From NCBI GenBank assembly GCA_025935615.1, contig JAICUY010000008.1, positions 1 through 39,633 of the forward strand: DNA of 39,633 nucleotides. The letters are read 5' to 3'. Under the pieces are notes generated by a model. That model saw nothing but the letters and a program-made list of their open reading frames with translations. It did not search any database and was not told the DNA's origin. The translations under genes were made by a program, and so were the position numbers. The stretch is from Steroidobacteraceae bacterium (GTDB taxonomy: Bacteria; Chloroflexota; Limnocylindria; QHBO01). Each line of letters opens with the position of its first letter. The first letter of the stretch is position 1. Of this stretch, positions 35,378-37,633 are shown piece after piece.

Positions 35378-36358
35378 ATGCCCCGCTCCGAGGAGGTCAG
35401 ATTCCGTGCCGGCGAGGTGGAGCTGGCAGGGACGCTGACCCTGCCGGACGCTCCTCCGCCCGACGGCCGGCGCGGCCGCTACCCGAACGTGCTGCTGCTC
35501 GCCAGCTGGCTGCCGCGCGATCGGGACGGCGCCTGGGACCGCATCGGTCATCCGAGCTGGTTCGCCCATGGGCCCACCGGTGTTGACGAAGACCGCCTGC
35601 TGGCTCGCCTGGCCGATGCGCTCAGCGCGCACGGCGTCGCCAGCCTGCGCTACGACAAGCGTGGCTGTGGCGCCTCCGGCGGCGACTGGACCGATGCGGA
35701 CCTGTTCACCCTGATCGACGACGCGCGCGACGCGCTCGGCTGGCTGCGTTCGCGGCCGGACCTCGACCTGCGACGGGCGGGGTTGCTCGGGCACGGCGAG
35801 GGAGCGGGACTGGCGCTCAGCGTAGCGATCCCCGATCCGGCAATCGGTGCGCTGACCCTGGTCGGTGCCTCCGCCCGCTCGATGCGCGACACGCTGCGCC
35901 GCGGCGTCGCCGAGCGCTCGAGGACGGGGCAGGACCGAGACCACCCGCTCATCGTTGCGTTCGACCGTTTGGCCGAGGAGCTCATCGAGCGCGCCGACCG
36001 CGGCGAGGCACGCATGGCGTTGCCCCTGCCCGGCGGGCAAGGCCCGATGCTGCGCCTCGCGTTATGGGAGCAGGCGTTTCGCACGCCGCCGCTCGCGCTG
36101 GCGACCATGCTGCATCGGTCGGTGAGCCTGGTCCACGGGCTCCGCGACGCCTGGGCGGATCCTGCGGAGAGCCGGCTGCTTGCCGACGTCCTGCGCCGAG
36201 GAGGGAATGAGCCGGCGCTGCGGGTCGTGGACGGGACCGGGCATGAGCTGGCCGAGGCACCGGACGATCTCACCGACGACATTGCCGCGGACCTCGCCGC
36301 GCGGCTCCTGCCACGCGAGCTGCCGCCTGTCCTGCTCGCGCTCCAGGATGCGCCGTGA
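35378..36358 (+). CDS. Alpha/beta hydrolase
   Basis: GVASLRYDKRGCGASGG...GLLGHGEGAGLALSVA; C-terminal GTGHELAEAPDDLT. Confidence 0.85.
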   Translation: MPRSEEVRFRAGEVELAGTLTLPDAPPPDGRRGRYPNVLLLASWLPRDRDGAWDRIGHPSWFAHGPTGVDEDRLLARLADALSAHGVASLRYDKRGCGASGGDWTDADLFTLIDDARDALGWLRSRPDLDLRRAGLLGHGEGAGLALSVAIPDPAIGALTLVGASARSMRDTLRRGVAERSRTGQDRDHPLIVAFDRLAEELIERADRGEARMALPLPGGQGPMLRLALWEQAFRTPPLALATMLHRSVSLVHGLRDAWADPAESRLLADVLRRGGNEPALRVVDGTGHELAEAPDDLTDDIAADLAARLLPRELPPVLLALQDAP

Positions 36359-36378
36359 TCAGTCTCGCCTCGCGGCAG

Positions 36379-36405
36379 TGACAGATTCCGCTCACGGCGG
36401 AGTTA
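36379..36405 (-). repeat. 27-bp intergenic repeat copy A (inverted)
   Basis: Reverse complement TAACTCCGCCGTGAGCGGAATCTGTCA. Confidence 0.75.
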
Positions 36406-36497
36406 GGCCACCGAAGGTCCGCGATAGGCAGCCACGCGGAGCGCGCGCACGCGCGCATCGGTCCAGCAGGCCGCAATATTTGGCGCTTGACGCTGCG

Positions 36498-36524
36498 TAA
36501 CTCCTGCGTGCCGGGAATCTGTCA
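36498..36524 (+). repeat. 27-bp intergenic repeat copy B
   Basis: TAACTCCTGCGTGCCGGGAATCTGTCA, followed by ACGAACCGGGTCGA. Confidence 0.75.
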
Positions 36525-36547
36525 ACGAACCGGGTCGACGGCGCCCA

Positions 36548-36574
36548 TAACCCCCGCTTGGCAGGAATCTGTCA
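36548..36574 (+). repeat. 27-bp intergenic repeat copy C
   Basis: TAACCCCCGCTTGGCAGGAATCTGTCA, followed by ACGACCCGGGCCGA; exactly 50 bp after copy B. Confidence 0.75.
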
Positions 36575-36626
36575 ACGACCCGGGCCGATGCGCCACCAGC
36601 CGCGTAACCCGGCTAGGATGGATGGC

Positions 36627-37112
36627 ATGACCCAGCAGGCACAGGAGACGCGGCGACTCGAGGCGGGCCAGCCCGCACCGCAGTGGCAGATGGCCGCCGA
36701 CGACGGTTCCAGCATGAGCAGCGCCGATCTCGCCGGCGAGCGCTACGTCCTCTACTTCTATCCCAAGGACGACACCCCCGGGTGCACCAAGCAGGCGTGC
36801 GGCATCCGCGACAACATCGGTCGCGTGACCGCCACCGGCGTCAAGCTCTTCGGCGTGTCGCCGGACAGCGTCAGGAGCCACGTCAAGTTCCGGGACAAGT
36901 ACGCGTTGCCCTATCCGCTGCTCTCCGATGACGGCCATCGCGTGGCCGAGGCGTTCGGGGTCTGGATCCTGAAGCAGTTCGCCGGCCGGAGCTATTACGG
37001 CAATGAGCGCAGCACCTTCGTCATCGGTCCCGACGGCGTCATCGAGCACGTGCTGCCCAAGGTCAAGCCGGATGAGCACGTCGACCAGCTGCTCGAGGTC
37101 CTCGCGGCATGA
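36627..37112 (+). CDS. bcp: Thiol peroxidase/peroxiredoxin, Bcp type
   Basis: LYFYPKDDTPGCTKQACGIRDN...LPYPLLSDDGHRVAEAFGVW...RSTFVIGPDG. TAGGAT box 7 nt before ATG. Confidence 0.93.
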   Translation: MTQQAQETRRLEAGQPAPQWQMAADDGSSMSSADLAGERYVLYFYPKDDTPGCTKQACGIRDNIGRVTATGVKLFGVSPDSVRSHVKFRDKYALPYPLLSDDGHRVAEAFGVWILKQFAGRSYYGNERSTFVIGPDGVIEHVLPKVKPDEHVDQLLEVLAA

Positions 37113-37222
37113 GCGATAACGAGCGCCAGACCACGCTCCTGGTCTCGATCGGTGTCGCCGTGCTCGGCGTGCTGCTGGTCGCGGGCGTGCTCGGCCTGAT
37201 GACCCTCCTGGCGCCGGTTTGA
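37109..37222 (+). CDS. 37-aa single-TM micro-protein
   Basis: MSDNERQTTLLVSIGVAVLGVLLVAGVLGLMTLLAPV; ATGA overlap with the bcp stop. Not in the ORF track. Confidence 0.6.
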   Translation: MSDNERQTTLLVSIGVAVLGVLLVAGVLGLMTLLAPV

Positions 37223-37226
37223 GCTC

Positions 37227-37367
37227 ATGCTCTGGATCGTGCTCGCCATCGTGCTGGTCGCGTGGCTGGCCGGGCTGCTGCTCAGCATCGGCCCCATCGT
37301 CAACCTGCTGCTGGTGATCGCCGCGATCCTGCTGGTGGTGCAGGTTCTCAACGAGCGCGCCGCCTGA
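37227..37367 (+). CDS. 46-aa small membrane protein (lmo0937-like)
   Basis: MLWIVLAIVLVAWLAGLLLSIGPIVNLLLVIAAILLVVQVLNERAA. Not in the ORF track. Confidence 0.7.
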   Translation: MLWIVLAIVLVAWLAGLLLSIGPIVNLLLVIAAILLVVQVLNERAA

Positions 37368-37449
37368 GCAGCCGAACGACAGCGCCTACTCGCCGAGTTG
37401 GCATGCGGCGTGCGTCTACCGGACCATTCGGAAAGGAGGCTCGAACGGC

Positions 37450-37596
37450 ATGCTCTGGACGATCATCGTCATTCTCCTCGTTCTGTGGCTGCTGGGCCTG
37501 ATCACCAACATCGTGGGTCCGCTGATCTGGATCGTGCTGGTGGTCGCGGCGATCGTGCTGATCTACCAGCTGCTTACCGGCCGCCGCGCGGTCTAG
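37450..37596 (+). CDS. 48-aa small membrane protein (lmo0937-like), paralogue of the preceding one
   Basis: MLWTIIVILLVLWLLGLITNIVGPLIWIVLVVAAIVLIYQLLTGRRAV; AAAGGAGG Shine-Dalgarno. Not in the ORF track. Confidence 0.8.
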   Translation: MLWTIIVILLVLWLLGLITNIVGPLIWIVLVVAAIVLIYQLLTGRRAV

Positions 37597-37633
37597 CCGA
37601 GGCGCTCCAAAGGGGGGAGCACCACATCTGCGC

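Follow-up and report, generated by a model that had tools for sequence, protein, structure and literature searches.

The repeat cluster upstream of bcp in the window (by which we mean the whole stretch of 39,633 nucleotides analysed here) is a dispersed intergenic element, not an operator of bcp. Elements of this kind, in which two inverted arms enclose a central box at helically phased distances, are linked in genomes of the class Limnocylindria to the 3′ ends of genes for a nuclease that is under purifying selection, and in one genus their abundance is tied to the presence of the partner gene. We infer that the nuclease binds, cuts and copies the elements, and is the agent of their dispersal. 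The pairing of repeat and enzyme looks like a previously undescribed bacterial system.

The element between a hydrolase gene and bcp

The element occupies the gap that separates a Hydrolase_4 gene, whose stop codon is at 36358, from bcp (36627); its left arm lies about 20 bp past that stop codon (Table 1). The preliminary description had reported three copies of a 27-bp repeat, one inverted and two direct at 50-bp spacing, and these proved to be exactly as quoted (A′ at 36379–36405 on the minus strand; B at 36498–36524 and C at 36548–36574, both on the plus strand): allowing up to three mismatches, the pattern was matched three times in the window, against no match in 100 dinucleotide shuffles. 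C repeats B in direct orientation after a 50-bp step (83% identity over 41 bp), and A′ is inverted relative to both. Aligned with all the other copies, the repeat unit becomes an arm of about 31 bp, the imperfect palindrome TTGnCAnATTCC-N9-GGAGTTAGGC, and the window element then consists of two inward-facing arms and, outside them at a distance of exactly 50 bp, a third. The left arm is itself an imperfect 29-bp palindrome, GACAGATTCC-N9-GGAGTTAGGC, with a leftward tip, GTGACA.

Arms of the window family start with TTGnCA and end with GTTAGGC. The resemblance to TTGACA that had been pointed out is that of this conserved arm tip, and no sigma-70-like promoter was found in the interval 36300–36700 (nor any terminator-like site). 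The sequence ACGAnCCGGGnCGA, described as common to B and C, forms the arm's outer tip; in reverse complement it is similar to GGTTCnTGnCA at other copies and at nuclease gene ends. The ‘partial TAACCC’ at about 36605 does not amount to a fourth copy: it was absent from the mismatch search and from searches with our arm model R1, and lies 57 bp from C, not 50. The tip extension of arm B, as its reverse complement, resembles TGGTTCnTG, the stretch that codes for the conserved ...WF in the nuclease genes. The box near the middle of the spacer differs at two positions from CCACGCTC, which is found midway in many elements, and lies 38 bp from the left arm and 40 bp from the right, as does the exact box in another genome (G007). 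Farther along, after bcp (37110–37600), are very small open reading frames for hydrophobic proteins, two of which (46 and 48 aa) look alike.

Table 1. Features of the element in the window, in order of position
Feature	Position	Strand	Basis or remark
Left arm (A′)	36378..36408	+	R1 match, 43.7 bits, E 4.1e-10
Spacer, 86 bp	36409..36494	.	Length conserved; sequence mostly unrelated to spacers of other copies
Degenerate central box, GCACGCGC	36447..36454	+	Read from sequence; weak in window copy
Right arm (B)	36495..36525	-	R1 match, 41 bits, E 3.3e-9; tip TTGACA, rightward
Tip extension of arm B, ACGAACCGGGTCGA	36525..36538	-	Sequence comparison
Outer right arm (C), direct copy of B 50 bp out	36545..36575	-	R1 match, 33 bits, E 1.4e-6
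Tip extension of arm C, ACGACCCGGGCCGA	36575..36588	-	B/C comparison

Dispersal in the window's genome and in relatives

In the assembly of the window's genome (G000; 1.88 Mb in 115 contigs, 68% complete), R1 found 15 arms of the window family (family 1) at seven loci, the window included. In four of the other pairs (on contigs C10, C21, C40 and C60) corresponding arm positions are 115 bp apart, which is precisely the window's spacing; a fifth pair (C23) has 126 bp, and C76 has only one clear arm. An outer third arm is found on the left side at C10, exactly 50 bp out, and the same 50-bp step recurs at two loci in G092 and in G007. These copies adjoin unrelated, differing genes, their spacers are mostly not alignable with one another, and no target-site duplication was seen by eye at the six complete copies, which may be old. 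A search next to the dispersed copies found no degenerate nuclease gene and no other remnant of a partner gene.

The window element is not an operator of bcp, because 12 genomes of the same family that have bcp show none of these arms within 330 bp upstream of it; given this and the unrelated neighbours of the other copies, the earlier suggestion of an operator array controlling the peroxiredoxin is not supported. The other suggestion made there, of a ‘REP/MITE-like dispersed element’, is right about dispersal (15 arms at seven loci, and arms in 31 other genomes) but not about REP/REPIN membership, and a MITE was not shown. The author of that description would have counted the idea refuted had there been neither further copies in the genome nor conservation in relatives; this was checked, and it is not the case.

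The exact motif of the window family had no match in 40 relatives, in GTDB contigs or in viral contigs, and it was through R1 that arms were recognized in 32 of the 177 genomes of the class (G000 among them), the versions in the other 31 being diverged. One relative, G092, has several inward-facing pairs, and R1 pairs on one contig are 102–228 bp apart, none being at a gene-sized distance among the loci examined. When 31 elements were checked, none lay inside a predicted gene; the neighbouring genes, as called, were convergent in six cases, co-directional in 15 and divergent in six, with the window itself miscalled as divergent.

No clean empty site was found, and movement was not observed. 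Elements persist at orthologous loci, where the spacer diverges and the arms, centre and spacing are kept; such persistence fits slow or past mobility, or a function for the host, as well as it fits active spread. An extra segment of about 730 bp at the edge of one element (L217 compared with L215) was checked as a candidate inserted partner gene, and is not one.

The partner nuclease

A comparison of flanks brought out, in several genomes, homologues of a single gene next to the element, and the R1 repeat coincides with the 3′ end of this gene in eight (G079, G092, G126, G131, G007, G044, G045 and G128). The gene encodes a protein of about 230 aa with an XRE helix-turn-helix (HTH) and a PD-(D/E)XK domain. 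It is present in 113 of the 177 genomes of the class, in up to 13 copies each, and in a sample of 400 genomes from the phylum it had matches in 34, which belong without exception to two families of this class. Within the scope of these searches the gene is restricted to Limnocylindria, and the protein was not found in the plasmid and phage collections searched.

The HTH is of the Cro/C1 type (PF13560/PF01381 in six out of six partner proteins), and the catalytic residues E108, D121, E136 and K138 (E, D, E-x-K) are invariant in 36 sequences. In an AlphaFold2 model (pLDDT 91), the HTH half is predicted to share the fold of HipB and restriction controller (C) proteins, and the nuclease half, which is without a Pfam model, gave weak fold matches that may relate it to R2 endonuclease and AF1548; it also shows weak similarity to restriction and defence nucleases such as Upx. 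No whole-length match to the HTH/nuclease fusion was found in Pfam, NCBIfam or PADLOC, and such PADLOC matches as there were covered the HTH only, or brief and weakly matching parts of the nuclease half. The nuclease is under purifying selection (dN/dS 0.12–0.29). Genomes have several fast-diverging paralogues, and split or stop-containing copies in several genomes (G049:C43, G063:C21, G014:C260, G130:C73, G080:C48 and G092:C14) suggest recurrent decay of the gene.

In a family related to that of the window, the left arm can be read in frame as the last residues of the nuclease (...LPDS...GV.R). In 61 distinct nuclease genes we looked for inverted repeats with one arm in the codons directly behind the conserved SGLxF and the other in the next 360 bp downstream, and gave each a score. 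A repeat scoring at least 11.5 was present at 40 of the 61 3′ ends; at the same threshold, an in-gene window used as the arm gave 1/61, and the region upstream of the gene 2/54. About a third of the genes have no clear 3′ pair. The link to a 3′-end arm pair is a property of the nuclease family. The arm sequences differ between paralogues (e.g. L118, L136, L122 and L146), and at an orthologous locus with flanks about 82% identical, the nuclease (66–69% identical) differs, and its arms differ with it.

Which part of the protein might recognize the arms? The recognition helix of the HTH was tried as the arm reader, and a partial Mantel test gave it no support (helix similarity against arm similarity, partial r = -0.01, p = 0.56); arm similarity follows the nuclease half (r = 0.32). 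A putative division of labour, in which the central box is read by the fairly conserved HTH and the arms by the C-terminal half, is possible.

Several individual loci show further arrangements. At L132 (G108:C128:930-4625), four 34-bp right arms follow one another in exact 50-bp steps, 112–295 bp past the end of the nuclease gene model, and at L114/L090 (G131:C214) the arm pair and the last nuclease codons are duplicated in tandem, with about 290 bp per unit. At L122 (G110:C66), a second inverted pair with the same arms lies upstream of the nuclease gene, from -989 to -783 relative to its end, and the gene thereby has pairs on both sides. A short tandem repeat (GCTCGAACGCCGGTGGGAG...) occupies part of the spacer of the gene-linked element at L050 (4120–4205; G079:C137). 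In the window's own genome, the region downstream of one nuclease homologue (G000:C76:15231-15914; L111 2158–2351) has different arms of its own (CACCAATACGGTTGGTG), with two right copies.

A second family, and its abundance

We derived a second arm model, R2 (family 2), exclusively from arms at gene ends in one genus. R2 arms, largely in inward pairs, occur in 18 of the 21 genomes of that genus, and copy number varies widely among its species, from 0 to 29 arms (the latter in G072). Among the matches listed, a nuclease gene ending in an R2 arm is present in all seven genomes with at least 10 arms and in two of the 14 others, and in one of those two it has an in-frame stop. The association, among the matches listed, has a Fisher p of 3e-4 (0.009 when the gene's own arms are subtracted), R2 having been built from some of the genomes used in the test. 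Some genomes (G084, G025 and G079) have family-2 arms without a partner gene among the matches listed. Within this genus, then, family 2 is abundant only where the partner gene is present, among the matches listed.

Architecture of the elements

The box CCACGCTC occurs in either orientation near the middle of 16 of 37 spacers (both families), compared with a maximum of eight for any 8-mer in shuffles. The exact box also occurs in five gene-linked pairs, where 0.44 would be expected, and four of these are outside the families used to find it. The distances between inverted arms in family 2 fall at 147–149, 156–161, 167–169, 178–179, 188, 197–199, 229–230 and 239 bp, and inverted-arm distances are phased at about 10.2–10.5 bp, or about one helical turn (nominal Rayleigh p 5e-11 for family 2 and 7e-5 for family 1; 2e-5 on distinct values; all are optimistic, as elements at orthologous loci are not independent). 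The spacer was considered as a hairpin, and this was rejected: spacers are not palindromic (0.389, against 0.379 in shuffles, with 2/37 below p 0.05). The phasing, the non-palindromic spacers, and the retention of arms, centre and spacing at orthologous loci point to a protein assembly that forms on double-stranded DNA, where REPINs have hairpins instead.

How might the elements be maintained?

By a narrow balance, we judge it probable that a multimeric nuclease cuts at or near these sites and that copies are maintained through repair of the breaks. The XRE-HTH/PD-(D/E)XK protein would form a multimer across the two arms and the centre, for which all three would have to share one face of the double helix; it would cut at or near such sites, and break repair would copy the element to, or maintain it at, other intergenic places. 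Arm-centre-arm copies could then make up a lasting, non-autonomous population that is serviced in trans. The assembly of the window's genome (68% complete) contains six nuclease homologues, none with the window's arms, and the family-1 partner gene might lie in the missing third of that genome or have been lost.

Alternatively, the elements might be dispersed operators, by which an XRE regulator, bridging phased arms, forms DNA loops at numerous promoters or gene ends, with its nuclease-like half serving for dimerisation or signalling and its own 3′ element belonging to the regulon. A looped repressor complex would suit the palindromic arms, the helical phasing and the central box, and the XRE/HipB/C-protein-like HTH and the retention of elements at orthologous loci are also in keeping with it; but the catalytic E, D and E-x-K are invariant in the 36 proteins, the elements adjoin genes in every orientation (convergent 3′ ends included), the bcp genes of 12 relatives are without one, and the arms do not track the recognition helix, so that we consider this unlikely. 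It is distinctly improbable that they are sites that structure the chromosome or serve a restriction-like or defence system for self-marking, maintained for the host and not spreading: the range of 0 to 29 arms between species of one genus argues against it, as does the confinement of PADLOC matches to the HTH or to short, weakly similar parts of the nuclease half, even though vertical retention, several fast-diverging paralogues per genome and the weak similarity to nucleases such as Upx would all accord with it.

As for an ordinary MITE, or the ends of a conventional DDE insertion sequence, the TG...CA tips and repeated terminal sites do resemble the ends of IS21 (PMC10122671), and the non-coding body is short. 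However, no R1-type ends surround a gene-sized body in the loci examined, the linked gene is not enclosed by the arms and encodes a PD-(D/E)XK protein, spacers are unrelated between copies, and the six complete copies inspected by eye have no obvious target duplications; we think this very improbable. An RNA hairpin or transcription terminator is hardly to be credited: the whole window element does fold better than shuffles (z -3.2), but the fold comes mainly from the arms and the spacers are not palindromic, covariation in the arm hairpin is weak, no terminator was found in 36300–36700, and an Rfam covariance-model search of the element gave no match up to E = 1.

Among the kinds compared, dispersed populations of short inverted repeats with a dedicated single enzyme gene are known with HUH (Y1) transposases; if repeats of this sort also had a second, unrelated enzyme as partner, this way of life would have evolved more than once. 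A protein family present in many copies within one class of Chloroflexota would gain a context, intergenic repeats otherwise read as promoters or operators would be explained, and matched pairs of protein and DNA from across the family would allow direct tests of recognition and cutting.

Comparison with known systems

REPINs are intergenic inverted pairs of short palindromic repeats, with a spacer variable in sequence and conserved in length; their families each have their own adjacent gene (RAYT), and persist vertically over long periods (PMC3116915, PMC8266576). The present elements are like REPINs or BIMEs with RAYT (TnpA-REP, the ‘REPtron’) in forming extragenic inverted doublets of conserved spacer length, with a dedicated adjacent gene for each family, and in being retained over long periods by vertical descent. 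They are unlike them in that the partner is an XRE + PD-(D/E)XK nuclease rather than a Y1/HUH transposase, the spacers are non-palindromic and helically phased with a central box, the window family is without a GTAG foot, and an arm lies inside the coding end of the partner gene. The Y1 transposase domain (PF01797) was found in none of the 177 genomes of the class, although positive controls were matched, and its absence, with the non-hairpin spacers, rules out a canonical REPIN/RAYT system. We would put forward, tentatively, the idea of an independent double-stranded-DNA counterpart of REPIN/RAYT, in which a PD-(D/E)XK nuclease would come together on phased arm-centre-arm sites, copying driven by breaks would spread or maintain these sites, and each paralogue would diverge together with its arms.

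The GTAG and CGTC repeats, of which GTAG has been reported in Chloroflexi (Thermomicrobium roseum), are also small palindromic repeats, often in dimers (PMC3733652), and to that extent resemble the present elements. The window family differs in having no tetranucleotide at the foot of a hairpin, and the partner enzyme is different; in family 2, GTAG occurs only inside the palindrome. With MITEs and IS21-type ends, the elements have in common terminal inverted repeats, TG..CA tips and multiple terminal sites, but in the loci examined they have no transposase between the ends, their spacers are unrelated, and no target duplication was seen by eye at the six complete copies. Integron attC sites (RYYYAAC ... 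GTTRRRY) were rejected: the boxes here are in the opposite order, GTTAGGC and then GCCTAAC-like, with an 86-bp spacer. On the protein side, the modelled halves of the partner appear to share their folds with HipB and restriction controller proteins (the HTH half) and with R2-type and AF1548-like PD-(D/E)XK nucleases (the C-terminal half), and unlike any of these the partner is a fusion of both.

No description of such a system in this phylum was found in the part of the literature covered, and the nuclease-linked dispersed elements fit no known family tested here. We rate them a kind apart because membership failed in each family tested and the enzyme is unrelated; to weigh more heavily the logic that they have in common with REPINs would place them within the REPIN kind.
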